Shown here: piece after piece, positions 1 through 45,614 of the stretch | How the letters are laid out: every line of letters starts with the position of its first letter | Numbering within the stretch: position 1 is the first letter of the stretch | NCBI GenBank assembly: GCA_003116975.1 | Contig: BGKB01000061.1 | Coordinates: 248,001-312,000, forward strand | Direction: 5' to 3' | DNA from: Aurantiochytrium sp. KH105 | Lineage: Eukaryota; Sar; Bigyra; Thraustochytrida; Thraustochytriidae | Length of the DNA: 64,000 nt | Notes under the pieces: generated by a model | What the model was told of the DNA's origin: nothing | Database searches by the model: none | The model's input: the letters and a program-made list of their open reading frames with translations, nothing else | Position numbers and translations under genes: made by a program

Positions 1-24
1 AAGAGCTTGTTCTCGTCTTGAAAC

Positions 25-1157
25 CTATCTGGTAGAAAGGCACTGCGGTTTACCACACCACATTGTTGTGGGCGTCGAGCCAAAGCTGCAGTCGCCGTTT
101 CCTGCGTTGGGGCAGTTCATGTAGCTCACCTCCCCGTTGACGCAAGCAGTGATGTAGAAGAACCTGTCGTCGAGGGGGATCTCTTCTAAGGCAAGGATCG
201 TCACGTTGTCGTCGGTCATGCGGCGCGTGTTGTCAACGCACTGCTTGTGCCACGGATTGAATCGTTTCCTGTAAAAGCTTTGCGTAAGACTTCGGAAAAG
301 AGGACTTGTTTCGTGTTTGTACCAGTCAAGGGTCGTGAATTCCCGCGCCGCTTTGCGGACGGCTGTGATGGGGAACCCCACGCCGATCGAAGCAGACACG
401 GCGAGATCGTAGAAACCAATGCCTACATGCTCGTTTAACTTGCGCCGCGAGTCATCTCTTCCGTCGTGCGCAGACGTCAGCTTCTGCACCCACGTTTCAT
501 TTGACCCCACGGCGCCTGAGAAGAAATGAGTGTGCACTGAACGCGTGCCCAAGTCATCGGGGGTGTACTTGTTGGTGGCAGGGCTTAGATGGCACTCACT
601 TTTGTTATCTGCGCCAAGCATTGACGCCTTGTATGAATCATTGCCCTTTGCGCCAACCCCTTCTGTAGCAATTCGGAAGGTGTGGTTGTCCAAGTCAAGG
701 AGAATGTCGTCTCTATTACCGGAGTCGAGCCTGCATCCAAAATTGTTTTCGAGGTTGCAAAGCTGCGCGCTAGCAGTTGGAACAAGGCCAAGGCGAGTCT
801 TGATCGTGTAATACCTGCGCGAGTTGTCTGTTGCAAGGCACCAAGGGCGGCTGTCACAAAACGCGCTGCACGCGACTCCAGTGTATCAACGCCGCTCGCG
901 GTGATCTGAACTTCCTCAAGCGCGAAGACATCCATGCGCGTCTGCCCGTCATCGCCGGATCCAAGTCCAAGGTCTTTTGGGTAGTCCTCCAACACGCACT
1001 TCGCTTCCGAAGGAAAAAATTGCAACAAACACAAAAGGGGAACTAGCAGCAGCAGCAGTAGCATCAACATGATGACGATGATGATGATGATGGCGGTACA
1101 AAGCGCGCGCGCAATCTGACTAACTTTATGGGTCTTAGATATATCGACACTGGGCAT
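25..1157 (-). CDS. Single-pass membrane protein with cysteine-rich ectodomain, frame interrupted once
   Basis: I do not recognise the family. The ATG at 1157 opens a frame with a very hydrophobic stretch (residues about 21-47, runs of I, M and L), a type II anchor or uncleaved signal. The frame then reads about 45 plausible residues up to position ~888. From there the coding-like sequence continues in a different frame: it is Cys-rich (ACSAFCDSRPWC, later CNLENNFGCRLDSG) and stays open without gaps to a TAG at 25-27. Together this gives about 375 residues: a short cytosolic tail, one membrane helix and a lumenal or extracellular domain with many Cys and several N-x-S/T sites. The switch lies near 870-888 and fits a one-base indel better than an intron, as I see no GT-AG pair there. 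It may be a sequencing error or an early pseudogene; the neighbour at 1229 is also frame-broken. Confidence 0.55.
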
Positions 1158-1228
1158 GTAGATGAGAGAGGGAGGGAGAGAAGAGATCGAGAATTCGAAT
1201 AATCGAAGCCGGGTGGCGTCATACTAGT

Positions 1229-3656
1229 TTGGCCTGCCCCATGTTTTCCATCCTCTGTCTATGGGCGTACGCCTTTAAACCATGGGCACGCTTGTTCACT
1301 GTGGTGGGACTTTCAATCCTTTTATCAACGACGTGCTACTCGCTGCCCTTCGTGAGCAATGAGCTTTTTTACTTTGACGATGGGACAGACGTCCGTGTCA
1401 AGGTAGCGGGCGTCTCTTGGATCCACGGCGTCATGGGCGTTGAGCGCGCGGTCCATATTCTGTGTGCTGCCATCGTGTGTGCTAGCTTGGTACAGGTGCC
1501 GCTCCCTCAGGAAGAGGTCGACGAAGAGGATGGATCCGTCGAAGAAGCCAAACAGGCAGGGGGCGTCTTCAACGCCCTGCTGGAGAGATACGCACATGGC
1601 CGTTTTCCTGCTCAATGTCTGCGGCATCAACAGGAATAGGCTCTCAGAGGTAATAATCAGAGGCGACTTTGTTGAAACACACTTTCACGTTTCAGCAAAA
1701 GAAGCAACTGCTTTCGTAAGGCACGCGTTGCTCATTGTGCGCATGGCCTTTTTCGCCATGGGTCTTGGGGCAGCCGCTCTCAATATGACCACACTCCGGC
1801 CGGTCCCGATTGGCTTTTCAGACAAGGCCCTGGCTCGATGCGCTGGTGCACTTGTCTTCGTCTTTCAGTTTGGGATCATCACCGCCAACTTTGTCACCAT
1901 GCACCCGCACATTTTGGCGGAAGCCGTGTCAGACAGGGTCGACTCTTCGACGCTTCGAGACCGCCACACCGAGTTTATCTTGGACGCCTGCATCGACTGG
2001 TCTCTGTCTCTCATCGGAGTGGCACTGGCTTTTGTTAGCTCACCAATTATGGACGCCGGGGACCCTCGCGCGGACAGGAACCGCTTCGTTGGGACATTCG
2101 TGTTTAACAACGTGTTTCTGGGGACGTACGGGTCCGCAGTTGCGACACGGATGGACTTTGCGCTCCAAAACGCGAACCTCAGCCACGCCTCCACGGTGGC
2201 GGCATCCTTCCTCTCGTGGTTCTGGTTTCTCTCCTTGCCGCGTCTGCCTTCGGGGAGGCGCTCCAGCGGTCTCTCTCTCACCGAGACAGGCGCGGCCCTC
2301 GCCAAGAATGCGTTTCGCGCTGCCGGTGGGACGAGAGCTCCCATCGTTATCCTCTGGCGCGTAGCCATTGCCGCCGGCGTCGTGAGTGGTGTGATCGCGT
2401 GCTTTTCTGCGAGCTCGCCTTGGTTCACATTCACGATCGAGGCAGGAACGATTCCCAAAGAGATCGGCATTCACGCCGAGAATGTGGAGGACCTCATCAG
2501 CGAGCTGAGCCACAGTGCACTTGGTGTGGTGAAGAAAATGGACCCGTGTCGGTGGTCCATCAGCAAGCCATCCGAGGCACTGAATTCAAGCATGTCGTAT
2601 GCGTACCCGCCGGAGTACAGCCACACCATGACTCACAAATCCTTCTCTCTCTCGACAGCCAAGGCCGACATCAGCGAGATGGACTGCAAGTGCAGGGCTG
2701 CAGGGGCCTGCGACTGCGAGACTATGCACGCCGCGCGGGCCCACGTTGCCACCAAAAGACAGGACAAGGCGGACTTTGCCGCGACGAGTAACATTTCATA
2801 CGTGCGCGACGAGGTCACTCACTTTCGCCAAATCACGGAAGATGTCATGTACGATGACGCAATGAAAAAGTGTCACGCGATGGAGTGTGACATCGTCTTG
2901 GGCGTTGCCGTTACCGCCGAATCAAGAATCCTCGCGAGCGGGACCGTGTGGCTGATCCCGGGCCTCGAGGACGCGATCAGCACGGCAGCCTGGTTTGGGC
3001 AGCTCGTGAATCGCGTTGGTCACGGGGTGCTCAAATACGGGCCCGACTTGCAAAGTTCTTGACAAGCCTTGCTCTAAAAATCAAATGCGTTCGTCCGTTC
3101 CTGCAGATGGTGCTGCGGCTTGCAGGTACCCGGACAAGGCGCGATACAATTTTACCATGGACCTCGCCATGATCTATGCCGCACTCGCGCTCAACTCTGC
3201 CTTTTGCGTTTTACTGGGTCTGTGGAGGAGGAAGAATATGAGGAACGTGTCGCACGTTTGGGTTCTTCACTCCTCTCTTCGCCGTGAACGTGATTATGAT
3301 GGGGCTGACGTTCGTGTTCCCCCTCGTGGCGCACGAAGTCGTCGGGCACGTGCCGTCGAAGCTTATTATGGTTGTAAAGGGGCAGATGCACGCCGGCTTT
3401 TACCTCTTGCGATACGCTTACTGCGGGAGTGCGATGAGCACCTTTTTTTTTCATCCTCGTAAGCATCGTGGACGACCTGTCACTCTTCCGGCGAAAGGCA
3501 GCCGTGTTACGCAGCCTTCTTCGAAAACCCCTTGCGTTACTATCAAGAAGGCCGTCGTCCACTGCCACTACCACTACCACGAGCACTGCCGCCAGGGCGA
3601 GCATGCTCAATCCAGGAGAGGCCTCAGACGACGACACGAAGCAGACGGCGGCGTGA
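1229..3656 (+). pseudogene. Polytopic membrane protein gene, frame-broken
   Basis: A multi-pass membrane protein of unknown family, readable in successive frames: 1229 to ~1600, ~1600 to 3060, ~3050 to 3240, ~3280 to 3440, then to a TGA at 3654-3656. Each piece continues the previous one without overlap of coding-like sequence. The longest piece (about 480 residues) holds roughly six hydrophobic segments. These are followed by a large ectodomain of about 200 residues with paired Cys (CKCRAAGACDCE) and N-glycosylation sites. Two or three more hydrophobic segments and a basic, Ser/Thr-rich tail come after it. No GT-AG intron convincingly explains the joins, so at least four indels are implied. 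Divergent from the gene ending at 1157, with only about 70 bases between starts. It could be a real gene in a poorly polished stretch; I favour a decaying gene. Confidence 0.5.
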
Positions 3657-3895
3657 ATTCAAACATTTGCGATCTCCGCACCGGTCCTTGCTTTCACGGC
3701 AGATGGGTTTACCGAGAACGTGCAGCTCGTGCATATCAGCTACGGGCCGGAAGGAGCCTTGCTCGATGTAGTGCACGCCTTTCCCGCACACAGACACCTC
3801 CTTGAAGCTGCTCACCTACAACGAAGAAAATACCTTGTGTGGCCTTATAGGCAAGGGTATCGAAGTGATGATTTCGGTCGCAATAAACGAGTTGC
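3657..3895 (+). pseudogene. Purple-acid-phosphatase-like N-terminal fragment
   Basis: In one plus frame (GCT near 3690) about 45 residues read like the Fn3-like N-terminal domain of purple acid phosphatases, where a segment of the type 'p-E-Q-V-H-i-S-x-G-p' precedes the metallophosphatase domain. Here it reads ENVQLVHISYGPEGALLD. No start codon, metal-binding motifs or downstream domain follow; the frame closes near 3895. If the resemblance is right, this is an isolated relic. The match rests on a short motif. Confidence 0.25.
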
Positions 3896-3973
3896 ATAGT
3901 TTATTTGAGGATGTAGTTCAGGTCCTCGAAACAGTTGCAGAGAGCGTCGTCGATGTGGCGTCCATCATCTTAT

Positions 3974-3993
3974 CTAACCTAACCTAACCTAAA
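3974..3993. repeat. Short CCTAA tandem (TTAGG-type)
   Basis: Three to four copies of CCTAA/TTAGG in a row. It resembles an interstitial telomere-type tract but is too short to be more than suggestive. Confidence 0.4.
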
Positions 3994-5670
3994 TCCACAA
4001 ACGACTTGATCAAGGCACCTCCGGGATCACCTTTTCCCCATCTATTCTCATGTCGAGAGCGCGCCTTTCGCTCTCAAAAGCGTCTGCAGCTGCGCTCTCA
4101 AAAGCGCGGGATCTCAACGCGCCTGAGCGAGCTCAAATTTCAAAGGTCTCAATGTCCATGTCAGCAGAGACGCCGCGGAGACGCTGCCGCGCAGGCGGGT
4201 AGGCAGCCCTGATGCGCGTGCTTGGTGGACGGTGTCGCAAGCTTGCGGTGCCCATACTCGGGCAGGCGCGCGCTCATCACCTTGCTCGGCGCGGAGTCTC
4301 GCCGCTGGGAGCAGCTTGAAGATCGAGCCAGCGAAGGTGCGTGCGGGTGCGGGTGGCGCGAGCAACGAGAGGCGAGGCGCGGGGAGGCCAAGACGCGGCT
4401 GTATCGATGGAGATGCGCATTTCGAGATGACCGCCTCGCGCTGCCCGGCGACTTGAGGATTGAATTGAACAACAGCAAGCAAGAAAGAAAGACCACCACA
4501 GCGTCTCGGACGCTGTGAAAAGCGCTTACGATGCGCGTCGCGTCCGCAGTCATGCTCTCTGTAACCTTATACTCCGTCAAGCTGATGTTTAGAAGCCGAT
4601 GCTGGCGGCCAAGCAGAGTTCAGGTCAATGAGTCGATGCGGCCACGACCGCTCGCTTTACAGTTATGTCGCTTTACAATTATGGTGTCAAACGCGTAGCG
4701 AGTGAAAGGCCCACGCACAGCGAGAAAATATTGCAAGGAGGACCGCCGTCATGTGCTGAGTCATGCATACTGTGCCCTTTGAAGCGTGCGTGCTGGGCCA
4801 ATGTCACATCGTCAAGCCTGTTGTCGCCCTGCAATGTTGCTCTGCTTTTTTGGCATATTTGAAACAAATCAGTAGCGCCAAGGCGAAGTAGTTTTTTGCA
4901 AAAGGTGTGTAGCAGACGAGCGCCGGCCTCGGTGTCGAATCTGGGATACTGTTCAGGCCAGCGCCGAAGTGTCATTGAGCCACATCACGCTTACGGGTAC
5001 GATTAGGCAAGGACACTTTTTGTTGTAGTTGCTGTTGATGCGATGGAATGAGAGGCAGAGCCGCGGCAAGGATGGCATTCGAAGCTGGCCGTGGCTAGAT
5101 AAGTCAAGTTCAGTCGGAAATTCGAGGCGCTCAGAGCAAATCGCAGTCGGCCCCATTTAGCCTCCGCGCGTCGTATCTAGATTTGTATTTTGAGTCATGA
5201 TGCCGCGGAAATTCTTACGCGGCTCTTTCATGCCAGACAAAACTTCTTTGCGACCCTATTCTTGAAGAAAAGGAAGGAACGCCGATTGGATGACGAAGCA
5301 TACTTGACGATGACCACTCGAAAAGTCGGCAGACGAAGGATTGAGTTGCTACTGTTGTCGACTGTTGTCATGGCTAGGTAAGAGATGGCAGTCTCTCTAA
5401 CATCCTCGAGAAAGTATCAATTGGAAAAGTTTCTCATCAGTACTTGAGGTGCGCTCTCCTTGCAATTAGGTGCGTTCTGCTTGCAATTTGTGACGCCGCC
5501 GCCGCATCTCCTGTAACCATAAAAAAGACCGAGAGGGTAAAAAAGTAAAGCAAAAGTTTATAAGCGAGATATTACTACTGCGTTGCAGTAAGTGATCACA
5601 AGCTGATCACAAGCAGTTAATGTCGCCCACGCAGGCATGGCACACGGTAGCGCAAAGCCGCACCGCACGA
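3994..5670. other. Intergenic, no supported gene
   Basis: Only short overlapping open frames are present, none with recognisable domains. The stretch holds a repeated CGCTCTCAAAAGCG-type motif near 4070-4106 and one copy of a dispersed 38-base repeat (4130-4167). It becomes AT-richer towards 5400-5600, just downstream of the stop of the receptor gene on the minus strand, where terminator signals would be expected. Confidence 0.5.
4130..4167 (+). repeat. Dispersed repeat copy 1
   Basis: A 38-base segment starting AGCTCAAATTTC and ending ATGTCAGCAG recurs at 11058-11095 with three mismatches by eye. The flanks do not match. Confidence 0.6.
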
Positions 5671-8600
5671 TTAGGTACTGGGTTCGATTCCTTGGACATG
5701 CAAGATGTGCACCATCCCGCCATCGTCGCCAATAAAGAAGACACTTCCTTGGCGAGCAGTATCAAAGATTGCGTGATCCGTCGTGAAGCCTATGCCTCCG
5801 CTGAGCTTCACATGCGTTCTGTTCTCGGTATTCACCAACGTCTTTGTTTCAGGTGTGATCGATGCCTCCGCTTCATCCGCGTCGAGTGCCTCGCCCGTTC
5901 GAGCGTTCCAGTAACAAGTCTCATTCTCTGACTCTGATACGATGGTGTTGCCCTGTATCGCCACGCTCCAGACCTGACCAGAGTGCCCCTTCAACACGTG
6001 CTGCTCCTCGCCCGACGTAGCGTTCCAGATGCGCACCGTGTTGTCATCGGACCCACTGACGATGGTGTCGCCCTGTATCGCCACGCTCCAGACCCAACCA
6101 GAGTGCCCCTTCAACACGTGCTGCTCCTCGCCCGACGTAGCGTTCCAGATGCGCACCGTGTTGTCATCGGACCCACTGACGATGGTGTCGCCCTGTATCG
6201 CCACGCTCAAGACCCTTCCAGAGTGCCCCTTCAACACGTGCTGCTCCTCGCCCGACGTAGCGTTCCAGATGCGCACCGTCTTGTCCTCGGACCCACTGAC
6301 GATGGTGTCGCCCTGTATCGCCACGCTCAAGACCGCATCAGAGTGCCCCTTCAACACGTGCTGCTCCTCGCCCGACGTAGCGTTCCAGATGCGCACCGTT
6401 CCGTCACGTGACCCACTGACGATGGTGTCGCCCTGTATCGCCACGCTCCAGACGGTTCCAGAGTGCCCCTTCAACACGTGCTGCTCCTCGCCCGATGTAG
6501 CGTTCCAGATGCGCACCGTGTTGTCCGTCGAGATAAACTCACCGGACCCACTGACGATGGTGTCGCCCTGTATCGCCACGCTATTGACCCAATTAGAGTG
6601 CCCCTTCAACACGTGCAGCAAGGGGTCGCGGGGATGAGCAAGGGTGACGCGAGTGGGCTCCAGCCATGGCTGATCAGGTGTTTGCAGACTACGTGCCAAG
6701 GGATCTTTCGAGTCGTGACCAAGACGCGCCAGAACTTGCGACGCAAGTTCGTTGGGATCGTAGCTGAGGGCATGCACTGCTTTGCTCAGGAAGCGCGGCG
6801 TATCACTTTCGGGCGCAAAGTAGATGTCGAGTTCGACGCAGTCGCGAATGAGGTTTCCGATTGTGGCGCGCCTTTGCGCTTCATCGTCACCGACAGAGAT
6901 GGCGCTCTGTACCCATGCAAAGTCATTCAGGAGCTCGAAAGCCTCAGCGTGCTCACCGCTCTTGACGAGGTGAAAGACGGCATGACGGAGCGAAAAAACG
7001 TCGTTCCGCGAGCTGCTGCAGTAGTCGGCCAAGGCAGTATGGCCATCTTCAACATCCACGCCAAGATTTCCGCTCAGGTCGTCATCCAGCAGCCAATCTG
7101 CCATCCGCTTGTGGATGAGCGCTACACGACCATCGCCGCCCTGGTACAAGAGATTACGCGCGTCGCCAACGATCTTTTTCGTCTTCTTCTTGGTTTTGTC
7201 AAGAATCACGGTGAGTTGCTCGACGCTCAACGGCTCGCGCGCTGCCACGATGGGAGTTAGCAATGACTGATAGGCATCCTCACCGCCCATCTTGTCGCGC
7301 AGGCGCTCAAAGTACTCTTCGAACATGCCGCCAAGCCCATTGGGGATGGCGTCTTTGTGAGAGATGTCCTGCAAGGTCAGCACTCCACCTTGTTTCTCCT
7401 CGTGCATCCGGTTCAGGGTCTCGGGAAGGAAGCTCGCCCAGAGAAAGAGACCTTCGGATCGCTTGGAAAGAATCTTGGCGCAAGAAGCAACGTCCTTTTG
7501 CTCCACGGTATCTTTCATGTCGCACAGCAAATGCTCGATGTGCTTTTCGATGTCGCGAAAGTTCTCTTTGTCCTTGAGCTCCAGCACTTTAAATTCAAGG
7601 CTATTGTTGGTGATGCCGCGCTGGATCTCGCCTTCGGGACGTGTGCTCACGACCAAGCTGAGCCATGCCGGCATCGCATCCTTCCACGTGCGAATGACCT
7701 TTCGCAAAACATCGTCGCTCTTGCTGCACTCATCGAGAGCGTCGAGCACGACCACTTGTCGCATCTGGTCTGACCCGAGCTTGGTTGCAGGATTGACGAG
7801 AATGGTCTGGAATACGTCGGCCAGAGGCTTGTCACGAATACCGTCCAAGCTCTCGGAGTCCAGTGCATCGGTAAAGCCAGGCACGCTCAGGCAGAGCTGC
7901 CATGCAATGCTCACAAGAGCCTCTTTCGGCGCAGCGGTCGTGACTTGATCATGCCGAAAGAAATGATATGCCGCAACAAAAATAGGATGGCGCTCTTTCT
8001 TGCTACGGCGCCACAAGCTACGTACACGTGACGACTTTCGGCGCGGCTCGACGCGTTCATCAGCCTTGCTCTTTTCGACATCTTCGTCAGTTTTCAGAGC
8101 GCCTCCGCGGTGGCAAAGCTCGGCCATGATGACGCTTTTGCCGACGCCACCGTCGCCCACAAGAATGAAGACGGCGCTCTTGTTGTCGCTGTACCACTTG
8201 CAGAGTTCGTCGACGATCCAGCTCCGCGTGCCGAGGGTAAAGTTTTCCGCCTTGCCCTTGGCCCATGCCTCTGAGCTGCACGGATTCAGGCGAGGATAAA
8301 TGTCGCGCATTAGAGGAGTGAGGTCCGATGAAGCCTCGGGCGTCTCGATGCGCATGCGAACGGCATTGACGAGGCTTTCGATCGCCTCGTCCGAAAAACT
8401 GCCATTCGAACATTCGGAAAGATTCACCGGTGCTTGCCTTGTGAGCGCGAGCTGAAATCGCCCATTCCACCCGGTTGCGGGCTTAGTCATGTCCTCTTCC
8501 AGCGCAGCAACAACGATGCGGTCAAATCGTTTGTTGCCAGCATATTGGAACTCCTTGAGGCAGTTATCGGCATAGTTACCGCTGTTGATCTTTTCCATGT

Positions 8601-9363
8601 ACCTTTTAGTCGCGAGAATAAGGAACACCCTCGATTTTTCGATGCCCTTTGCCATACTCTCGTCAGTGCTTCCAGACATCTCATTGTCATCGAGCCACGC
8701 TTCGAGACCTTGGTCACGCAGTTTCTGAGCAATTTCGATGGCTTTATCGTGAATGCCCCACTCATGCGAAACGAAGAAGTGAAACTCCTTGCTATCCAGA
8801 GCTGGCGAAACACGAACTTGGGCGGCATCAACTTGGGCCATGATCGCACGCATGTCAGCCTTGACGGGGTCACAGAAATCGACATAGAGTAGATTGGGCA
8901 TGTACCACGCAATCGCGCCTTTCCAGTCCTTTTGTTCATACATTGTATCGTCGATGAGGATGGGTACAAGCGCGTTCGGGAGGATCCTCGCCACTGCCTC
9001 AACGAGCTTCCAATTGTCTTCGAGTTTTTTGCTCACGAGCAGTAGAGCGACCTCGGCATTTTTGGCCTCCTCTTCAGCCTCTGCGGCGTGGCTGCCGGTG
9101 CACACGGGCACGCTGAGGTGGGGCTGAATCGCGTCAACCAGCTGCTCGGCCACGGTCTCGTCAGCGGGATCGTGTACGACGAGGACGGCGACGTCGGCGA
9201 GCACCTCAGGGGGACTACGAAGCGCCTCCGCCTGCTCAGACGCGGCAGTATGGAGCTCTGCCTCCGCCTGCGCGGCATCGTTTTCCTCGCGCTCGACGCT
9301 TGAACCTTCGTTCCCTTGCCCTCTGCCGAAGACAGCGTAGATGCTTTTTCTCAATCTTTCCAT
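5671..9363 (-). CDS. TIR-NACHT-WD40 STAND receptor (NLR-like)
   Basis: A 1230-residue signalling ATPase of the STAND class, intracellular and probably a sensor of ligands or non-self. I start it at the ATG at 9361-9363; the frame extends upstream without another ATG. Order (numbered from this Met): degenerate TIR-like fold about 56-168; a full TIR domain about 193-313 (FHFFVSHEWG, AWLDDNEMSG, RVFLILATKRY) with Glu271 in NCLKEFQYA, at the place of the SARM1 catalytic Glu; NACHT with Walker A GDGGVGKS (403-410), Walker B VVVLDALDE (537-545) and an STRPEG sensor; a helical region to about 900; six WD40 repeats 916-1158; a tail of about 70 residues. The repeats are nearly identical. In fungi and animals such proteins oligomerise through NACHT when the repeats bind a trigger, activating the N-terminal effector. 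NAD cleavage here is inferred only from the conserved Glu. Intact, with no intron visible. Confidence 0.93.
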   Translation of the reverse strand: MERLRKSIYAVFGRGQGNEGSSVEREENDAAQAEAELHTAASEQAEALRSPPEVLADVAVLVVHDPADETVAEQLVDAIQPHLSVPVCTGSHAAEAEEEAKNAEVALLLVSKKLEDNWKLVEAVARILPNALVPILIDDTMYEQKDWKGAIAWYMPNLLYVDFCDPVKADMRAIMAQVDAAQVRVSPALDSKEFHFFVSHEWGIHDKAIEIAQKLRDQGLEAWLDDNEMSGSTDESMAKGIEKSRVFLILATKRYMEKINSGNYADNCLKEFQYAGNKRFDRIVVAALEEDMTKPATGWNGRFQLALTRQAPVNLSECSNGSFSDEAIESLVNAVRMRIETPEASSDLTPLMRDIYPRLNPCSSEAWAKGKAENFTLGTRSWIVDELCKWYSDNKSAVFILVGDGGVGKSVIMAELCHRGGALKTDEDVEKSKADERVEPRRKSSRVRSLWRRSKKERHPIFVAAYHFFRHDQVTTAAPKEALVSIAWQLCLSVPGFTDALDSESLDGIRDKPLADVFQTILVNPATKLGSDQMRQVVVLDALDECSKSDDVLRKVIRTWKDAMPAWLSLVVSTRPEGEIQRGITNNSLEFKVLELKDKENFRDIEKHIEHLLCDMKDTVEQKDVASCAKILSKRSEGLFLWASFLPETLNRMHEEKQGGVLTLQDISHKDAIPNGLGGMFEEYFERLRDKMGGEDAYQSLLTPIVAAREPLSVEQLTVILDKTKKKTKKIVGDARNLLYQGGDGRVALIHKRMADWLLDDDLSGNLGVDVEDGHTALADYCSSSRNDVFSLRHAVFHLVKSGEHAEAFELLNDFAWVQSAISVGDDEAQRRATIGNLIRDCVELDIYFAPESDTPRFLSKAVHALSYDPNELASQVLARLGHDSKDPLARSLQTPDQPWLEPTRVTLAHPRDPLLHVLKGHSNWVNSVAIQGDTIVSGSGEFISTDNTVRIWNATSGEEQHVLKGHSGTVWSVAIQGDTIVSGSRDGTVRIWNATSGEEQHVLKGHSDAVLSVAIQGDTIVSGSEDKTVRIWNATSGEEQHVLKGHSGRVLSVAIQGDTIVSGSDDNTVRIWNATSGEEQHVLKGHSGWVWSVAIQGDTIVSGSDDNTVRIWNATSGEEQHVLKGHSGQVWSVAIQGNTIVSESENETCYWNARTGEALDADEAEASITPETKTLVNTENRTHVKLSGGIGFTTDHAIFDTARQGSVFFIGDDGGMVHILHVQGIEPST
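5890..6618 (-). repeat. Near-identical 120-bp WD40-coding repeats
   Basis: Six tandem units encode WD40 repeats. The four central units (about 6001-6480) are exactly 120 bp long and almost identical at nucleotide level. Differences cluster in the codons after GHS (NWVN, GTVW, DAVL, GRVL, GWVW, GQVW) and in the SGSxDx turn (RDG, EDK, DDN, DDN). The first unit carries a short insertion and the last is eroded (SESENETCYWNA). Confidence 0.95.
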
Positions 9364-10863
9364 GGTGCAACTAGCCTCACCGTCCTTTGATTCGACTGCG
9401 CGCCCCTTCTCGCGCGCGGCTGCCCCCACCCGAGGGCCGTTCCCCTCGCCCCCGCGGCTGCGCGTCCTCGACCTCGCTCTCGTGCAGCGAATTAGTTCTG
9501 CTGCTCGCGTGCAGCTCCTCTACCGCCCTCGGGGGCTGGAGCCGGGGGATAAAAATTCCAGAATACTCCCTTGTTTGGGCCTACCATGTACGAAGGTCCG
9601 AATGTGGTTCTGCTGGAGGGAGTAAAACAAGAACTGCATGCTGCGCGTGCTGCGCATTGTTTCCGAAGCCAAAAAGCCCTTCTTCTTTCCATATAAAATC
9701 TGGTGGGCGGGTGCGCGTGCACAACGCAGCCGCCACTGCCAATGGCTAGCGGCCGTTCTCCAGCGTGTCCAGCGTGCACACGTCGCGCGAGCCCGTCCGT
9801 CCGCAGCCTTTTCCCCTCACTGCATCCGCCAGTGGTGATGGGCCTGAAGGAAAAGGAAAGCGGGCCTGACCTGGAAGGCGAAGGGGGAAAGGGGGTAAAT
9901 CGAAGTAAACGATCATCATGATGAGAGTGTGTGCGGACGCTGTCGCGCCTGGCTGGCTGTTGGCGCAGCAGGCTGCTGAGAGGGAGTCGCCAAACTCGCC
10001 TGCCGCGCCAAACTCGTTGCGCGGACCGACCGAGCCTGACAGCTCTTTCACGAGGTTTATGTAGTATACTGGCTGACGCGCCAGAGTGTCTATCCGGCAG
10101 GTAGATGACGACACTGCAAACAAAGAAAGAAACAACCAACCAAGCAAATGGTCTATCGGGAACGGGCGCGTGCCCACCAGTGGCAGCTGCTCTTTTTAAG
10201 CCCTCCCTCGGCCAGATTCTTCTCTTTATGATCTCGGTAAAAAGCATCAACCAACTCGCGCGAAGCAGCCAGTCCAGCTGTGGAAGCAGGCCAACGACAA
10301 CTCGCAGAGCAATTTCCCAGCGCACGGCCTGCTCTGTCCATCAGCCAGGCGTTGTGCGGAAGAAGAGGGAGGCGCGAACAGCGTCCCGCGCGGCGAGCCT
10401 GATCAATCAGCATCGGTCGATCGAAGGCGCACGTCAAGTTGTCGGAAGGAGGGAAAGCAAGAAGAGGAAGGGGGGTCAGCAGGCAGATAGGAGCTCTGCA
10501 CGCGCGCGCAAAGTAAAGCAAAGCGTTCCATCTCCACTGACGACGTAGCGATGACAAGAGCGCTGCGCCGAGGTCCATTGAAGATTGCACGCCCGACACA
10601 AGGTCTGCAACTTTCTTTTAGAGTTTAGAGTCATGTCATTTTATGAAGTATGTGGGTTCAAATGGATTACTAGTATGCCTAAGTACGCAAGGAATGTCTG
10701 GGGAGTTTCGGTTCTGCTGAGACGAACTTGTCTGGTGGTGAAGATCGATGTTTCTCCCCACCTTAAAAGGCGTCTCGAGGATGTAGAGAAGAGCTTGATG
10801 ATCACAAATCTTTTGGCCGTGCTAGTTCGTGTTCTGAGCGATGTTAGACTTACCTTAATGTCG

Positions 10864-10937
10864 CACGAACTAGTGGCTGCCGAGATTGGATGGTTGTCGG
10901 CACGAACTAGTGGCTGCCGAGATTGGATGGTTGTCGG
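10864..10937. repeat. 37-bp perfect tandem duplication
   Basis: Two identical, directly adjacent 37-base copies (10864-10900 and 10901-10937) beginning CACGAACTAGTGGCTGCC. No sequence change between them, so the duplication is recent or maintained. Confidence 0.95.
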
Positions 10938-11057
10938 CACGGCAAGTCTACAATAGACTTCCCATGGGTCCCAAGTTTACTTCACCACTTCTGTGGCGCT
11001 GCTGTCTGCTCACGTCATTTCCATTTCCCAACACATTTCTTTCGAGAATTTTAGTCT

Positions 11058-11095
11058 AGCTCAAATTTCGAAGGTCTCAATCTCGATGTCAGCAG
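11058..11095 (+). repeat. Dispersed repeat copy 2
   Basis: Partner of 4130-4167: 35 of 38 bases match, same orientation. Confidence 0.6.
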
Positions 11096-11154
11096 TGCTG
11101 GATCTCGATGGCGAACTTGCATTGATAAATTTTGTCCGGGGCGTCGTGCACCTA

Positions 11155-11350
11155 CCCCTTAAAAAGGGGGTCACGCAAAAAAAAAAAGTGCCTTTCAAGG
11201 TGCCGCCTGAAAATGGGGGTCAATTGCTTGTGCTTAAGGCCCTAAAGTTACAAATACGTGAAGCTGACCCAAAAAAGGGTTCACACTAGAAAAGAGTGCC
11301 CCCCTTCTTTTCCAAAGTGCCGCCAATTGTCTGATGCTAAGGACGCAAAA
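11155..11350. repeat. Imperfect tandem duplication of ~100 bp
   Basis: Two diverged copies (about 11155-11250 and 11271-11350). Each has an A-run/G-run block, a GTGCC...AAAGTGCCGCC or AAGGTGCCGCC segment, and then CAATTG-CTTGTGCTTAAGG or CAATTGTCTGATGCTAAGG. No coding role seen. Confidence 0.5.
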
Positions 11351-12009: not shown

Positions 12010-13450
12010 TTGGTTGCGTCTCCGAAAAATGGACGGCCATCGCCAATCGTGGACTCATCCAGCTAGCGAGCGGTGGCGCGCGTCACTTGGGCGCACCGCC
12101 CTACTTGTCTTTTTTTACCCTTTTACAGGAAGAGCACTGGACCTTGGTCAATCTCGCTTGAGCATCGAGAATGGACAGCCAGGCGAGCGTCCATTCCAAA
12201 GCAACAAGCCTTCTCTACTGCCACCCTTCATCCTGTTGCAAGTGTCATTTGCAGTCGTGTATAATATCGCTAGCAAGCGCGGGCGCTCGGGCATCGCGTC
12301 CTGCGGCTCTGTACTGAAGGGAAGGCTGTTTAGCGGCATCATCCAACATTCGGAAGAAGAGAAATAGTGAGCAGGGGCGCGAGCATCACATGAACACGTC
12401 CACGCTGGTTGATCTATATCATCATTTACTCTTTATTCCAAGAAAACTGAACTTTGGTGGTCAATCGCGCTTGACTGTGGAGAATGGACAGCTGTTCAAT
12501 TCTCGTGGGAATGCAAGCACACGCAGGTCTTTAGAGCACAGGCTATTTTCGCTGCCAATGTCAGTGGCAACGGCTCTGTACTGAAGGGAAGGCTGTTTAG
12601 CGGCATCATCCAACTTTCGGAAGAAGAGAACTAGTGAGCAGGGGCGCGAGCGTCACATGATCACGTCCATCCTACTTGTTCTATACCATGATTCACTCTT
12701 TTCTAAATTCCAAGATAAGTGGACCTTGGTGGTCAATCGCGCTTGACCGTGGAGAATGGACAGCAGTTTAACTCTTATGGGAATGCAATCACACGCAGGT
12801 CTTTAAAGCACAAGCTTTTTCCGCTGCCAATGTCAGTGGCAACGACTCTGTACTGAAGGGAAGGCTGTTTAGCGGCATCATCCAACTTTTGGAAGAAGAG
12901 AACTTGTGAACAGAAGCGCGAGCGTCACATGAACACGTCCACCCTGGTTGTTCTATACCACGATGTACTCTTTATTCCAAGAAAACTGGACCTTGGTGGT
13001 CAATCGCGCTTGATCGTGGAGAATGGACAGCAGTTTGTCTCTAAGGGAATGCAAGCACACGCAGGTCTTTAGAGCAAAGGCTATTTTCTCTGCTAGAGCC
13101 ACATTGCCGGTGGTACAAAGGATCAACGGCTATTTGAAGTCGCTGTGATAGGGGCGCGCCCTTCCTTTTGCTTCCACACCTCCCTCCTCTCGCATCTTCC
13201 TGCACTTGATGGTTAGCTCTCGCTGCTTCAAGCACAATGGAAAGTGGCGCACAATCACCGTACCTTCATGTCGGAGTTGGATCTGCTGCTGCATCAGACA
13301 GCTGGTCATGCTCTATGGTCAAGCACGACTGACCAAGGTCCATTTTTCTTGGTTTGAAAAGGTACAAGGAAACAGGTAGAGTCCACGCGGTCAAGTCACG
13401 CCGGCGCCCGCGCTCGCCAAATATGTTCCACCGATATGGATGAAATAGGA
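12010..13450. mobile_element. Foldback (TIR) element with internal ~270-bp tandem monomers
   Basis: A left arm at about 12060-12185 (GGACCTTGGTCAATC, then GAATGGACAGC) reappears inverted and diverged at about 13310-13420 (CTGACCAAGGTCCATTTTTC). The similarity continues through the neighbouring pyrimidine tract and GCGAGCG segment, giving long imperfect inverted repeats around ~1.4 kb. Between them lie tandem monomers starting GGCTCTGTACTGAAGG at 12305, 12572 and 12844, a period of about 270 bp, each containing the same CTTGGTGGTCAATCGCGCTTGA core as the arms. I see no transposase, so it is non-autonomous: a foldback or MITE-like DNA element, or a satellite with an inverted end. Exact ends and a target-site duplication were not resolved. 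Confidence 0.55.
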
Positions 13451-13730
13451 GGACTGGTCCAGTTCATTCTCTCCCAAGTACAAACGGATGGTGGCCAAAA
13501 TTTTAGTCCTGGGCCTTGGCGATCTAAACTAGACGAGCTACTTTGCTCAACAGCTGAAATATGGTGACCGTGCGCTGTCTATTCTCGAAGAAATTCTGGG
13601 CAGCTGTGCAAATATCGAGCAAACTCCGAAGGCGAAGACCAAAAATTCAGCAAATCTCTAAGTCTTGCTTGCTCGGCAAAGTATCGAAAATAGACAGAGT
13701 GATCACTGAAAGATTTGCAACGCACACACC

Positions 13731-14386
13731 ATGAATTTTTCTTCATCTCAACTCTCGTCTCCCAGCCCCGTTGCGCTTCTCTACAAATGGGATGTCGAAA
13801 TGGCAGAATGGCGGTCCGAGATGGAAATTGTACTCAGTGTCATTTAATGTTTCTCCTGTCAAGCGTCACGTGCTTTTATGGCGTCGTCTGTAGCAAAAGG
13901 TCGGATATGACCTGCGTTGCGTGGAGTTTGTCTTTCTTCCTGCAACTTTCACGCAGTTCTCCGCTGGGTCTCATTGTTGGTTTTCACCATCCTGTTAGTG
14001 ACCTTTCCCGCATTTATCTTGTTACTAAAAGTCTTCAGGTCGACAATCATCTATTGTTGATCTGTCCAGCGAAGGAGCTGATTCTCGTTAGTATTTCCTG
14101 GCTTATATCGCGTCAAGACATTGACGCAGTACAGATGCTTACTAGCATTACCGTTTTGTCTGACTTTTATGGCATTGCAGGGAATACTAGTCTAGGCCAT
14201 GGTCTTGTCATGCAAAACGTGATTCAAGAAATTAACAAGGTCCAGGATGAAGTGTCACAAGTCGCGCGAATCATCAAGACTAGTCCTGGCCATGTCTTTG
14301 CCATGCAAATGGTGCTCGAGAAAGTTGATAGAGTGCAAACTGAGGTGCAAAAAGTCGCGAGAATCATCAAGCAGCAAAAAGATTGA
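13731..14386 (+). CDS. Possible spliced gene with C-terminal coiled-coil repeat
   Basis: Not a recognised family. An ATG at 13731 opens 38 protein-like residues (MNFSSSQLSSPSPVAL... WDVEMAEWRSEMEIVLSVI) that stop at about 13845. The same strand ends in another frame with a clearly repetitive segment, 14190-14386. There two ~30-residue units share GHxxxMQxVxxxxxxVQxEVxxVARIIK, a heptad-like pattern, and stop at 14386 after KQQKD. One or more introns between the two are likely; a plausible acceptor is TGGCATTGCAG just before 14181, but I could not settle the donor. Alternatively the end piece is a fragment of a larger gene left next to the foldback element. Confidence 0.33.
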
Positions 14387-16240
14387 GCATGCTCGAGAAG
14401 GGAGGAGCAAGTCGACCGGTGAAACGAAGGAACCTAGGGCTGCAATTCGGCGGGGTTGTTCGCGCTCGAGACACCGGTAATGGAGTGTAGAACGTTCGAA
14501 GCCGAGCGCCTGCCCGCCAACTAGCTAATCCCGTAAAGAAGAGTTCACACCCAATGGAATATGATCTGCGATTCGAGAGCAACCAAAGAGCTTTTCGGAT
14601 AGCGCAATGCGTTTTTAATTTTTCGTGCAGCCTATGTTTTCAGTCGCGCTCTTCCACTTGTGCTTTTGGGACTCTCTCAACATGAATTTCGAGGACGCGC
14701 TTCAAGTTCGAGGATGCGCTTTCGAGACGCCACGTTGTACAGAGTCTTGCGCAGACTGGGATACTAGAAGCCCAGGAAGGCGTCTGGCTACTTGCGAGCG
14801 GCGCGTAGACTTGACGAAAGAGTCGCCGCGGACTTGGATGCCCTCGCGATCGCGGGCAGAAAGTCGTCTCAAGATTGAGGCAAGAAGATAGTTATTAACT
14901 TCATGTCCCAAACACACCGCTCGTGGCAAGTGAGGCGGAGCAGAGGACACGCGTTCCACGGCTCAACTAGATGAAATCCAGACGATGAGCCGCTTTGTGG
15001 CGCCATGCCGCGCTGAGAATCATGGTGTATTCCAGCGCGGAAAAATTTGCGGAGCCAGAGGTTCAAATGTTCCAGGATCGCTTCATGTAAATGCAAGTGA
15101 AGATGTACTGCGCATGCAGTATCGGCGAGCAGAGGCGGGAGCGAGGGTCGAGTGGAGAAGAATTCTTTGTGGAGGTGGGAAAGGTCCAGGAAAGTGTACA
15201 AGCAAACGTGGCTGCGGCCAACTACTTGCTCAAGGCTGCCTTAAAAAATTCAGACCAGGCTTTCCGGCTCAAAAGCCCAGGTGGTTTCGCTCCTGCGCGA
15301 CTTCTACAGTGAGGTCGCTTCGATTGCTTCCGGAGAAGCAGCGCTTACAACACACTTGCCTCCTGCAAAAGCTGACCGGGAACAGCACTGCAGCATATAA
15401 CCCGCATCGTCGACCCTCTCTGCACTGCCTCTTCTAGGCATCCCTCCCTCCCAACAAGCTCACGCGTGACATCCGCACCACCTTGCGCCCACAAATCGTG
15501 CCGTCCATCTCGAGCCCGACGTCCACCTCTTCCCCTCCTCCTCCGTCTGCAAAAACTCCGGCCGCCCGCGCGTCTTGCGTCCGTCCGTCCAAGCCGTGGC
15601 CCCGCTGGCTCTCCATCCAGATATGGTTCGTCCCAGAAGCGCGGAGGCGGACATGGCCTCCGCGCTGCCCTACCGCGACTAACTGTAAGAGCGGCAGCCG
15701 GGATCCAACCTAGCCTGGCCAAGCCGAGGCTTAAAATTGACAAACACTTCGTAAACAGGCGCAGAATCCTGGCGAGCAGACCCGAAAGGTAGGTCGAGCC
15801 CAGGCGCCGCCGCCCGCGACCTGCGCGAGCGCGAGCGGCGCGGCGGAGGCGGAGGCGGAGGCGGAGGCGGGGCCCGCGCGCGGAGCGAAGACCGGGATGG
15901 AATGTACATCGTGGCGGCGGACGCGACTTTCGCGTGCTCAGGATCCCGCGCGGAGGGCCTGGCGAGGCGAGGCGAGGGTGCGTGCGTGCGTGCGCGCGCG
16001 CGCGAGACTTCGCGTTGGCGCGCTGAGCTAGAAGATCGTGGTGCGAGCCGGAGGATGCGGGGTGGTCGCATGATGACGAAGCTGATCATATTTTTAATGA
16101 TCAGGAGGAGGAGAAGGAGGTGTAAAAGTCACAACGCATACTGACGCGAGCGCATGATTCTTGACGGATCTGTTGACAGAGCAACGCTCGAGACCAAAAG
16201 ACAAACAAAAGAGACAAGAGCAAAAACAATAACGAGAAGA
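14387..16240. other. Intergenic, GC-rich towards the right
   Basis: No gene supported. A 73-residue frame at 15091-15312 has a helical look (VGKVQESVQANVAAANYLLKA) but no family. From 15400 the DNA is GC-rich and all frames open by composition. A (GGAGGC)n tract lies at 15841-15872 and a short GTGC(G)n tract near 15980-16005. The last 100 bases form the leader of the nitronate monooxygenase gene. Confidence 0.45.
15841..15872. repeat. (GGAGGC)n microsatellite
   Basis: About five hexamer copies in the spacer upstream of the nitronate monooxygenase gene. Confidence 0.9.
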
Positions 16241-17407
16241 ATGGGGGTCTTTCGCACGCGCGTGACCGAGCTGCTCGGCATCGAGCACCCGGTGATCTGC
16301 GGAGGCATGACGGGCGTCGGCACCGTGGAGCTGTGCGCGGCTGTCTCGGAGGCAGGTGGTCTCGGCATGCTGACCGCGCTCCGTAGCGAAACGCCCGAGA
16401 ACCTTCGGCGTGACATCGAGCGCGTGCGCAAGCTGACTTCCAAGCCTTTTGGCGTCAACCTCACGATTCTGCCCGCCATGGTCCCCCCTGACTACGAAGG
16501 GTTCGCGGACGCCATCATTGAGAGCGGGGTCAAGATTGTCGAAACTGCTGGCAACAACCCCAAAAAGTGGGTTGGCAAGTTCAAGGCCGCAGGTCTCATT
16601 TGCATTCACAAGTGCGTCACCATTCGCCATGCCCTCAGTGCGGAGAGAATTGGCGTCGATATCATCTCCATGGACTCCTTTGAGTGCGCCGGACAGTACG
16701 TTTGACTCAGCCTCTTGACATTTCGTTTTCCTTCTTTCCTTTCCCCCTCCCCTCCGCAGTTCTTTACACCTCCTCTCTCAATTTGCCCTCGCTTGCCTCG
16801 CTCGCTGACCTTCCCCACTAACGAAACGATTACGAATAAAAAACGTGTGGCGTGACACAACAGTCCCGGTGAGGAAGACATTGGCGCCATTGTACTTTTG
16901 GCCAAGGCCGCCAAGAAGCTTCGTGCCCCATTTGTGGCAAGTGGAGGCATTGGTGACGGCAAGCAGCTCGCTGCCGCCATTGCGCTCGGCGCCGAGGGTG
17001 TCAACATGGGCACGCGCTTTTGCGCCACCAAAGAGTGCAATTGGCCGGAATCTTTCAAGCAGCGCATGGTTGATGCCCAGGAGACGGACACCGTACTCAT
17101 GTTCCGCGCTCTCCACAACACGGCACGCGTCTTCAAGAACAGGGTGGCCAGCGAGGTGGACGAGATCCAAAAGGCAAAGGGCATGGATCTTGACTTTAGC
17201 GATATCGCGCACCTTGTTGCCGGCACCCGCGGCCGCGAAGCGGAGCGCAACGGTGATGCCGACGGTGGCATCTGGACAGCCGGCCAGGTGATTGGCCTCA
17301 TTGACGACCTTCCAACCGTGAAGGAGCTCATGGACAACTTTATTGGCGAAGCTGAGTCCACGATCCGCAACCGCATGCCCAATGTGCTTGCGTCTTCGCG
17401 CCTCTAA
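16241..17407 (+). CDS. Nitronate monooxygenase (2-nitropropane dioxygenase family)
   Basis: An FMN-dependent TIM-barrel enzyme that oxidises alkyl nitronates (such as propionate 3-nitronate) to carbonyl compounds. Exons 16241-16695 and 16864-17407 give 332 residues, normal for the class. The N-terminus MGVFRTRVTELLGIEHPVICGGM is typical, so I start at 16241; an in-frame ATG at 16154 would add 29 basic residues. Landmarks: GVNLTILP near residue 70, ETAGNNP, SFECAGHPGEED (His152, completed exactly across the intron), SGGIGDGKQLAAALA-type phosphate-binding strand (here AAAIALGAEGVNMGTRF). These are the hallmarks of the family. Ends 216 bases before the stop of the convergent PTPA-TIP41 gene. Confidence 0.93.
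16696..16863 (+). other. Intron of the nitronate monooxygenase gene
   Basis: Starts GTACGTTT and ends ACAACAG, 168 nt, phase 2, with a pyrimidine-rich middle. Removing it joins CA to T to make the histidine of FECAGHPGE, a motif expected at this point, which confirms the boundaries. Confidence 0.93.
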
Positions 17408-17623
17408 GAAAAAAAAAAGTGCGACCGGCCGACGGCCCTTTCGACCTTTTGCGCACGTACTTGCAAATAGCTTTTCGAAATGTATGCTCTCTGCATCATC
17501 GTAAAGTATGCTTGTTTCGCGTGCGTTCTCCTCCAAGTAGATATTCCTTTTCTACTCGTTTTCGCTTCACTTCGCAGTCACTTTTTATATATAAATTCTT
17601 TGCTTTTTCCTTTTCCCCATTCT

Positions 17624-23989: not shown

Positions 23990-26065
23990 TTTCCACCCCT
24001 CAAAAAAAGTTCTATAAGAAATTTTGACAATAGATGACGAATGCTGGTGATGTAAGAAAAGAGTTTCGTTCGATGCGTGTTTTAATCAGAAAATGTATAC
24101 ATATTGATTCTGCCGCCTGTCATCGTGAAGAGCTCTGGAAAAGAGTGTTCTGGCTGGCGACGCTTTGCGCAGGGCAATATCGGCCCGCGTCCGCTCGTTC
24201 TTCCGCTCGTCCGCTCGCCCGCTCGCTCGCGCGCCAGCATGCTTCAGACCGCGTCGAAGATCGACGTACGACTCTTGCGCCTCGACAGCTTGAGCCTATG
24301 TGGGAGCAACTGTGGCGTTTTGTCCCCGCAGCGGACTTCAACCGGGGCCAATCAACTTACTACATGGATGGTCGAATACGAGAGCCAGCGACTACCCAAT
24401 TGGCGGTGAGCACGAATAAGTCTTGTCCGCCCGCATTCTTTCCAGCCGTCCCCTCAAGTATACTTTCTTGTGCAGCGAAGCTGCTGGATAGGCTGGCTGC
24501 TGCCGCCGTGATTGTGATCGGTTCTGGGAGAGCGGCCAGTCGTTCCGGCCATCGTCGCGCTGGCCGCCAGTCTCCCCGCCCTTCTTTTCTTTTCTTTTCT
24601 TTTCTTTCCTTTTCTTTTCTTTTCTTTTTCTACAAGATTTACGGGCCAAGCGCCGAGGAGTGCTCGACGCAGCTGCTTCGATGACACGTCGAGCGATCAG
24701 AGATCCCGGCCGTGCGTCCATGCCAGGCTCTTCGTTGGGCGCGCGTTCTCCTCCACCTCCGCAGTTTGTGCGTCACTCCTCTGTCCACGAAAAGACTTGA
24801 TTGCACACACGCGTCCCTGCAGTCATGTTACTGTCAGGTCCCGACTCGACTGCGAGTTGCCTGCGCCTCATCGCTTGGTTGAAAAAGTGGGGAACATCAG
24901 CCAAGGCAGCCAGCTACCAAGCCACCATGACCACTCCAGGTTCGGCCAGCTATCAGTGACAGGCCAGCCACCCCCACGTGGCAGCTGCCTGCAGCGCCCT
25001 CGGCCCCGGCGCGGCCCGCGCCTTGCCCGATCGCTAGACGGCCGCCAGTCGGGCCGCCGGGCACGGAGAGAGAGAGAGAGAGAGAGGAAGAGAAGCGAAG
25101 GCGACGGCGGAAGCCTCGGCTGCGGGGCGAGCGGGGGAGTGCGGGCTACTTTCATTCATTCTTCCTTCCTTCCTATTTCCTGTCCATCTATCTGGCCGAG
25201 GCCGTCCGAAAAGATGCGAGTCCAGATCCGCCGGCGGCCGCCACCCGGGATTGCAGTGGACACCGCCCGCACGTGGGGAGCGGCCGCTGCGCCCGGGAGA
25301 ACGAATGGACGTACTTTCTTCCCGGCGCGCCGACAGCGCTGTCGCCTGCCTGGCAGCCCGCCAGCCGCCCGCCAGCCGCAGGCTGTGCGATGTGGTAGAG
25401 GCTTACTTGATTTGTCTGCGCACGCAGAAAACCCCCCTCCGATCGTTGAGCCCGCCGTAGTTCGGCCGCAAGAAGTCTGAGCAGACAACTCGAGTCAAGA
25501 CACACGAAGAGCTTCGTCTCGCGGCGTCTTCGCGCCCGGCCGCTCTCCCGGGCCGGGCCGGGCCGGCTGCCAGCCTCGACGATCTTTCGGGACATGGACA
25601 ACGCACCAACCGGGCGTCCGGGAGAGCGAGGTCTCAGAGAACGAGGGGCTGGAGTGGAGATCCCTCACTGCGCTGCACTGGCTTGAGCTGTACATGGCAC
25701 GATGTGCATGCAGGGCACGATGTGCATGCAGCGCACAGAGGCAGTGGACACGCGAGCTCACCGCTGGACGCGGGCCGCCGCGGACGTACCGCTCCGGGAC
25801 CTCGGGACAACAAGTTCGTAGAATTACCTCCCGCTTGGCCATGCGGGAGAGCGACGCGGCGGAGGGGAGACCAGCCGACTCGCGGTGATGACTTGGAACT
25901 GCATTACATTGCGAGTTAAGGGGTGGAGGATCACGAGACAAGAGCAAGGAAGCAGCAGGGATGTTTCGCGAGAAGCAAACCTGAAACTCTTGCGACTCAA
26001 GCTCAAGCAGCTCAGCCACCCAAGCACAAGTGAACGAGAGGCGCACCATCGCTCGAAGACTGAAG
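23990..26065. other. Spacer between array copies A and B
   Basis: No gene supported. It holds a (TTTTC)n tract at 24583-24630, an (AG)n tract near 25068-25087, a 16-base direct duplication GCACGATGTGCATGCA at about 25697-25729, and a GGGCC/GGCCG run at 25552-25572. The last 100 bases share CTCAAGC-type leader sequence with copy A. Confidence 0.5.
24583..24630. repeat. (TTTTC)n microsatellite
   Basis: About nine imperfect pentamers in the spacer between the first two array genes. Confidence 0.9.
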
Positions 26066-45123: not shown

Positions 45124-45614
45124 TAATGTTATAGTATACTATGCGTCCTCCCTCCCTTCGCTCCGCGCAGCATACGAGGCTTTTTCACTGCTCACGAGCT
45201 GTATAATATCGTGCACGGAAAAAGGAAAGGAAAGCCGCGTGCCGTGTGCACGGCACGCGCTGGCATATTTTTTTTGCACAAACTCCTTTCGCTCTCGCCC
45301 TCGCGCCCCGGCGCGACCGCGTGGTAGGCAGGCAGGCGCGCAAGGCGCAAGCCAGCAACCCCCTCCCCCTCCCCTCCCCCTCCCCTCTTTCTCCGCGCGG
45401 GCGCCGCCGCGACACGCTCCGTCCGCGCGCGCTCCCCGCGGAGACCGCGCCAAGGCCGCATCGCATCAGCAGCCGGCTCAGGCTCTTCCATCTCTCCCGT
45501 CTTTGTCTTTCCCTCCCCTCGCCCGAGTCTCCCTCTCTCTTTGCTTTCTCGCTCGCGGCGCCTCTTGGCGTCTCTTGCCCGCCCGCCCTCGCTCCCCTCG
45601 CCGCCATTGCCGCC

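Follow-up and report, generated by a model that had tools for sequence, protein, structure and literature searches.

Does the genome of Aurantiochytrium sp. KH105 encode receptors that diversify a WD40 sensor in the manner of the Podospora HNWD genes? The question is raised by a gene on the minus strand (5671..9363) of a 64,000-nucleotide (nt) stretch of contig BGKB01000061.1, called the window below and used for all position numbers, which is part of a 76-Mb, 367-contig genome. The gene is an intact single open exon, with its ATG at 9363 and its stop codon at 5671-5673, and encodes a protein of 1230 amino acids (aa) with TIR, NACHT-type, and WD40 domains; its start Met is invariant across 26 aligned paralogues (alignment A1). 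An earlier account made from the letters of this DNA alone (here the sequence-only reading) had proposed a polymorphic non-self or pathogen recognition gene. We found that the gene belongs to a large, genuine, and strongly patterned gene family, which is probably a repertoire of NOD-like receptors (NLRs) whose WD40 sensor diversifies in the Podospora HNWD manner but whose effector is a TIR domain.

Five hypervariable codons in a near-identical repeat

The window protein has six WD units in total, and the variation among them is highly focused. Units 2 to 5 (6001..6480, minus strand) are full 40-codon units that differ at codons 8, 9, 11, 25, and 27 and at one other nucleotide. Unit numbering starts at HVLKGHS here, and these codons are numbers 11, 12, 14, 28, and 30 of the sequence-only reading minus three. 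Units 2 to 5 differ on average at 0.50 of 105 nt outside the variable codons and at 7.17 of 15 nt inside them, a roughly 100-fold excess per nucleotide, which bears out the earlier claim of near-identical 120-bp units that differ at just these codons. Other genes of the family with three or more units show a 2.2- to 44-fold excess per nucleotide at the variable codons.

A scan of 30 genes of the family identified 274 units, 1 to 15 per gene, of which 226 scored above a stricter cut-off; units that carried insertions or masked bases, or that scored under the cut-offs, were dropped. Across these 226 units, a count that includes both members of near-identical pairs, positions 8, 9, 11, 25, and 27 had entropies of 2.78, 3.71, 3.31, 3.30, and 2.46 bits, respectively; no other position exceeded 1.53 bits, and the five residues formed 197 distinct combinations. 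417 pairs of units from different genes were identical at all 105 other nucleotides, and only four of these also matched at the variable codons; with those four set aside, the variable codons of the identical pairs were about as different as those of other pairs. Length varies as well: a text pattern detected long b-c loops in 14 units from 8 of the 30 genes, with 13 distinct loop sequences, and in unit 1 of the window gene (6481..6615, minus strand) the b-c loop is five residues longer. As a control, five blades of another WD40 protein in the window (ORF 45246-48941; ORF, open reading frame) averaged 29% likeness without gaps, compared with 72% for five blades of the window gene, its out-of-register long-loop unit included; the pattern is therefore not general to WD40 genes here. 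L014, L029, and L034, each the partner in a near-identical pair, were excluded from the analyses of base usage, pN/pS, association, per-codon ratios, canonical-core units, and the spanning tree, and were kept in the entropy count, the nucleotide differences and identical backbones between units, and the comparisons over all gene pairs (chassis dN/dS and repeats against chassis).

Selection on the repeats and on the chassis

Among 191 units from 27 genes, pairwise pN/pS (the ratio of nonsynonymous to synonymous differences per site) was 1.24 for the variable codons, compared with 0.35 for the remaining ones. Parsimony on a tree of 185 distinct units gave dN/dS (the corresponding ratio of changes) of 1.06, 1.75, 1.08, 1.40, and 0.80 at codons 8, 9, 11, 25, and 27, respectively, and eleven backbone codons were significantly conserved after correction. 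The variable codons look saturated, and because saturation pushes per-codon ratios toward 1, we also linked 85 near-canonical units by a minimum spanning tree. On that tree, the variable codons had 134 nonsynonymous single-nucleotide changes, or 11.0 per nonsynonymous site, and 15 synonymous ones, where a synonymous share of 19.1% was expected (p = 0.002); the backbone had 36 and 41, respectively (Fisher test against the variable codons, p = 4e-12). These p values serve as guides, as neither tree edges nor unit pairs are independent samples. The chassis is under purifying selection, with median dN/dS over gene pairs ranging from 0.17 in the TIR domain to 0.37 in residues 53-190, and 0.29 in residues 641-916.

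Concerted evolution and possible reshuffling of units

Based on within-gene similarity, we picked 14 genes with homogeneous arrays and 5 with diverged arrays. Fourfold-site divergence of repeat backbones in the 14 homogeneous genes had a median of 0.055 within genes, a figure that is circular because the groups were picked by within-gene similarity; the comparison between genes, at 0.064, is less so. For pairs of the same 14 genes, fourfold divergence was 0.178 in the NACHT region and 0.336 in residues 53-300, and repeat backbones were less diverged than NACHT in 88 of the 91 pairs. Across all 435 gene pairs, repeats were less diverged than the chassis in 292. Units identical between genes were in excess at a chassis divergence of 0.2-0.3 (107 seen vs. 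61.8 expected from fourfold sites), and none were seen at 0.3-0.4, where 1.7 were expected. Within units, codons 8 and 9 and codons 9 and 11 were linked (p ≤ 0.001), and association between the sets 8/9/11 and 25/27 as wholes was undetectable (p = 0.20).

A gene family spread across the genome

A search of the whole genome with residues 191-915 as the query returned 67 rows, which were merged by hand into places. The family occupies at least 59 places, the window gene included, with pieces of one place merged and haplotypes counted apart; scoring covered 62 of 223 candidates, which makes this number a minimum. The best row at each place had 64-98% identity to the window gene. We read 30 of the 59 places (L009-L038); some of these were truncated where a contig ends or contained masked sequence. 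Among the paralogues in alignment A1, TIR_2 was matched in 26/26, NPHP3_N in 26/26, and NACHT in 24/26 (E ≤ 0.01). Some family members are broken, as internal stops occur in 2 of the 67 rows (C35 and C219) and the frame is split at three places (C213, C131, and C27:3605-5753).

Different stretches of the window gene's chassis have different nearest paralogues, which makes this chassis a mosaic. By eye, the TIR segment of the alignment (A1 residues ~190-300) falls into several sequence types that do not track the rest of the chassis. To judge from the alignment, paralogues seem to trade effector segments as well. Scans for relatives with two short peptide patterns in each collection yielded 33 matches in bacterial and archaeal contigs and 38 in viral contigs, none of them confirmed by alignment A1; a restriction of the family to this genome does not follow from these scans, which covered bacteria, archaea, and viruses only.

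Domain architecture and structure models

The TIR-NACHT chassis with a WD40 array that had been read from the sequence was confirmed on the intact 1230-aa ORF by Pfam matches to TIR_2 (residues 196-296, E 1.3e-16), to the NACHT-like P-loop family NPHP3_N (E 1.8e-17, strongest over residues 450-574), and to WD40 (five stretches, E 3.7e-45); the NACHT model PF05729 scored 25.4 bits, slightly below its cut-off of 26.7. The gene, all parts of which lie on the minus strand, has near its N terminus a segment conserved in alignment A1 (residues 53-190, 8794..9207). By eye, it looks like a second TIR domain in degenerate form; a Pfam search of the window protein and the 26 paralogues gave no match in it, and the structure model has low confidence there. 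It is followed by the TIR domain (residues 196-297, 8473..8778), which is supported by TIR_2 (E 2.1e-17) and Foldseek matches, and by an NPHP3-type or NACHT P-loop NTPase region (residues 361-640, 7444..8283), in which Walker A reads VGDGGVGKSV in 22/26 paralogues and Walker B reads QVVVLDALDE in 23/26, the remainder being one residue off. A linker between the Pfam matches (residues 641-914, 6622..7443) leads to the WD units, in which Tandem Repeats Finder reported a 120-bp array at 5939-6525 (4.9 copies, 94% matches). Unit 6 (5884..6000) is a degenerate terminal unit, and the C-terminal segment beyond it (5674..5883) has predicted strands up to residue 318 of a 326-residue model of the WD part; the segment is probably the closing blade.

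That model has a WD40 propeller fold (predicted TM-score 0.85; mean predicted local distance difference test score [pLDDT] 84), and its best solved-structure matches in Foldseek were designed and natural WD40 propellers, with TM-scores of ~0.7-0.83. In unit 3, positions 8, 9, 25, and 27 lie in loops and position 11 is the second residue of a strand; loops bearing positions like 8, 9, 25, and 27 share one face in WD40 folds. The model of the N-terminal 640 residues was poor (mean pLDDT 50), and for that reason only its TIR region was used. This region resembles the solved TIR domains of SARM1 and TIR-1, with target TM-scores of 0.73-0.78 to isolated SARM1 TIR domains (Foldseek). RPP1, which ranked top, was set aside, since it superposes badly (TM-score 0.13). 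Residue 271 is Glu in 25 of the 26 paralogues and Asp in 1; by analogy with SARM1, E271 is a candidate for the catalytic Glu of an NADase.

Putative haplotypes and flanking sequence

Window positions 13600-20000 have a single close partner, C129:192588-198988 (92% identity), and as the sole such partner C129 would represent the other haplotype. Homology to this putative partner ends at window position 12571. About 110 bp further along C129, sequence homologous to the 3' end of a family member in the opposite orientation sets in; ten units of this member are visible, one of them partial, and it has 83% identity over 561 matched query residues. By eye, none of these units carries the variable residues of any window unit. 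The C129 contig ends ~1.7 kb beyond the match to this member. A 272-bp tandem repeat of 2.9 copies (12307-13088) contains the endpoint of haplotype homology.

The gene itself sits in a block (1..11158) that recurs on C155 and in part on C198, C23, C72, and others. On C155 the block is colinear around member L036, which has 11 units compared with 6 in the window gene. C155 was considered as an allele of the window gene and rejected, because blocks with an identical left edge occur on C198 and C23, and we treat it as a duplicate. The part adjoining the gene (1-620 and 1046-4180), also found on C155, C198, and C23, holds a 540-aa ORF with no Pfam match, and the window copy has ~426 extra bp between its two parts.

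One further pair, L025/L026, with ten units each, differs at 47 of 150 nt of the variable codons and at 58 of 1050 nt elsewhere. Diversification seems tied to homogeneous, recombining arrays.

Proposed mechanism and alternative explanations

If the family is an NLR repertoire, its products would be intracellular receptors with a TIR effector, a NACHT switch, and a WD40 propeller as sensor. The variable loop residues of all blades would together make up the surface that contacts a target; once bound, the target would open the NACHT switch and bring TIR domains together, and the assembled TIR domains may act as an NADase or as a signal that leads to death or a defence response. Candidate targets are a non-self marker of the same species or a molecule from a parasite, and it is by analogy that we infer recognition and cell death in this family. 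Diversity would arise in the germline as in Podospora nwd genes, with units gained by duplication, lost, and swapped both inside a locus and from one locus to another, so that the backbone stays uniform, and with selection for new binding, so that the five contact codons differ in nearly every unit. The pattern itself is plain in the repeats, and its cause is partly shown. A more ambitious version, which we consider unlikely, holds that several hundred units are shuffled between loci and haplotypes while a focal process raises mutation at the contact codons in addition to diversifying selection; this would amount to anticipatory recognition with a logic like that of adaptive repertoires, in a host outside fungi, plants, and animals.

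Several observations weigh against a repertoire diversified by unit exchange and selection. The concerted evolution put forward in the sequence-only reading holds for the 14 homogeneous genes and fails for the 5 diverged-array genes (WD divergence 0.389 vs. 0.358 for NACHT), and at low chassis divergence fewer identical units are shared than expected (63 vs. 87.9 and 244 vs. 377.4). Weak associations across the two codon sets appear before correction (8-25, p = 0.045; 11-27, p = 0.03). Selection at the variable codons, which that reading also proposed, stands in the pooled counts but not codon by codon: ratios ranged from 0.80 to 1.75, codon 9 alone reached nominal significance (p = 0.008), and none of the variable codons fell below 0.05/40. 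Synonymous changes per synonymous site were 3.2-fold denser at variable codons than in the backbone (5.25 vs. 1.63), which selection alone does not predict. Lastly, the haplotype-like pairs L013/L014, L028/L029, and L033/L034 are equal in unit number (13, 6, and 12), agree at 139 of 155 variable residues, and have changed at 29 of 465 nt at variable codons compared with 157 of 3255 nt elsewhere. For this class of genes, repeat number and most variable residues are kept, a pattern that had been named beforehand as speaking against polymorphism; within the one genome at hand, the C129 relative with its different inverted array speaks for polymorphism, and the equal unit numbers of these three pairs and of L025/L026 speak against it.

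Some of these points would be explained if mutation were the driver, that is, if targeted mutagenesis, template-driven or repeat-induced, hit the variable codons and selection only filtered the outcome. The 417 unit pairs with identical backbones and only four matching sets of variable codons fit this view, as do the denser synonymous changes and the neighboring codons 7, 12, and 24, which deviate more than most (4/36, 5/37, and 6/38, respectively), together with codon 4 (4/36). A regional mutator would, however, need codon precision, because codons 10 and 26, each flanked by variable codons, hardly change at their synonymous third base: among 32 canonical-core units from 16 genes, with 28 different variable-codon sets, the third base is kept in 30/32 at V10 and 32/32 at D26. 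Base usage also argues against it. The first base of codon 8 is G in 144 of 191 units and that of codon 11 is A or T in 185 of 191, all four bases occur at the first two positions of codon 9, and codon 27 is adenine-rich; the variable codons thus lack the plain adenine-only usage of diversity-generating retroelements (DGRs), although no search for a template repeat was made. No reverse transcriptase family was among the Pfam matches listed for the ten other window ORFs scanned, and the three haplotype-like pairs show little acceleration. We regard such a mutator as quite unlikely.

Relaxed constraint, in which the five positions are simply free in the WD40 scaffold, recent amplification makes the rest look alike, and recognition plays no role, appears about equally improbable to us. 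WD40 proteins often vary in their surface loops, and in the tree test the per-site dN/dS of the variable codons was close to 1; yet 11.0 changes per nonsynonymous site there, against 1.63 per synonymous backbone site, exceed drift unless mutation is raised (as the value of 5.25 would allow), the nonsynonymous excess (p = 0.002) weighs against it too, and low chassis dN/dS with internal stops in only two of the 67 rows argues for function. It is also conceivable, but very unlikely, that NLR genes expanded by birth and death with a WD40 part that is structural rather than sensory, and that assembly errors or haplotype duplication inflate the size and diversity of the family. Homologous contig pairs are indeed present, the 5 diverged-array genes lack concerted change, three places are frame-split, and of the 30 members on contigs whose length is known and reaches 100 kb or more, 16 sit no more than 20 kb from a contig end (3.5 expected), as broken repeats would. 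Assembly error cannot make codon-level patterning, though, and the three haplotype-like pairs reproduce their unit order on separate contigs. A subtelomeric location of members was also considered and set aside, as the enrichment at contig ends is indistinguishable from assembly breaks; exact telomere patterns (four TTAGGG or three TTTAGGG) had 0 matches.

Other features of the window and genome

ORF 45246-48941 (plus strand), which encodes WD40, Roc, COR-A, and TIR_2 domains, is a second receptor-like gene. Its relatives comprise at least 40 rows at no fewer than 38 places (counted by hand, window copy included; 38 of 707 candidates scored); the other copies have 68-94% identity, and internal stops occur in 7 of the 40 rows. 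ORF 17624-19669 (minus strand) carries PTPA and TIP41 domains, two PP2A-type phosphatase regulators that are apparently fused. Similar ORF sets at 26030-27685 and 29210-30856 (plus strand), ~3.18 kb apart, suggest a tandem duplication, and ORF 26030-27685 has no Pfam match. The DNA polymerase delta of the window scored 1146.5 bits against 6s1m (human) and 1018.6 bits against 6p1h (yeast), which hints weakly that the host is no fungus. Elsewhere in the genome, at the end of C142 (L044), a fragment that by eye is like the largest RNA polymerase subunit lies beside the upstream region of a family member.

Comparison with known systems

The family resembles TIR-type NLRs of the STAND class in that a TIR domain, a P-loop NTPase with Walker A and B motifs, and C-terminal repeats are joined on one chain. 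In plant TIR-NB-LRR proteins (NB, nucleotide binding; LRR, leucine-rich repeat), a TIR effector and a STAND NTPase are combined with an LRR sensor, and TIR and STAND domains also occur in animals and bacteria. Unlike in the plant proteins, WD40 replaces LRR here, and diversity is concentrated in five codons of each near-identical repeat.

The closest parallel is with the HNWD/NWD genes of Podospora anserina (HET-D, HET-E, HET-R), which likewise join NACHT to C-terminal WD40 units that have a near-identical backbone, vary in number, and evolve in concert. The likeness to HET-D/HET-E and HNWD on which the sequence-only reading relied extends to a match in position, as variable codons surround conserved V-type and D-type positions in both: codons 9 and 11 flank V10 here, and codons 25 and 27 flank D26. 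The Podospora study describes positive selection at codons 7, 9, 25, and 27, around conserved 8 and 26, in 69 units from 10 genes with concerted evolution (PMC1805685), and a second study describes unstable WD40 units and reshuffling (PMC2873952). Conserved V and D are 16 codons apart here and 18 in Podospora, and the at least 59 places here, haplotypes counted apart, compare with 10 genes and 69 units there. The family further differs in a fifth variable codon (codon 8), in its long-loop units, and in its effector, which is TIR rather than HET; no HET was among the families listed for the 26 paralogues, and because of its effector we do not count the family as an HNWD member. It thus resembles HNWD non-self recognition and differs from it in effector and size, and probably in host. 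If this is true, the fungal way of diversifying WD40 repeats at the binding face also operates on a TIR-NLR chassis, at larger scale and in the same position register. It would provide a second system for asking whether such repertoires recognize conspecifics or parasites and how a 120-bp unit can undergo concerted evolution and diversifying selection together.

Among fungi more broadly, NLRs with highly conserved WD, ANK, and TPR repeats also have variable contact residues, and the passages available from that survey contain no TIR-NACHT-WD40 family and describe the similarity of HET to TIR as remote (PMC4986451). A treatment of WD40 proteins covers double propellers and high internal conservation, the latter being commonest in fungal and bacterial WD40 proteins (PMC12222747). 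Within the partial coverage of titles and opening lines of abstracts, the literature searched contained no TIR-NACHT-WD40 family with hypervariable repeats outside fungi. Multicellular bacteria possess DGR-diversified NACHT sensors, some with TIR, in which error-prone reverse transcription alters C-type-lectin domains (PMC10907252); both systems couple a NACHT protein to a rapidly diversified sensor, but the WD40 family lacks the plain adenine-only pattern, with no template repeat having been searched for. In brown algae, ROCO candidate immune receptors with exon shuffling are reported (PMC11378527). The thraustochytrid family differs from these in having TIR-NACHT rather than ROC-COR and open concerted arrays rather than exon shuffling or alternative splicing, and it shares with them a diverse repertoire of candidate immune receptors outside plants, animals, and fungi.

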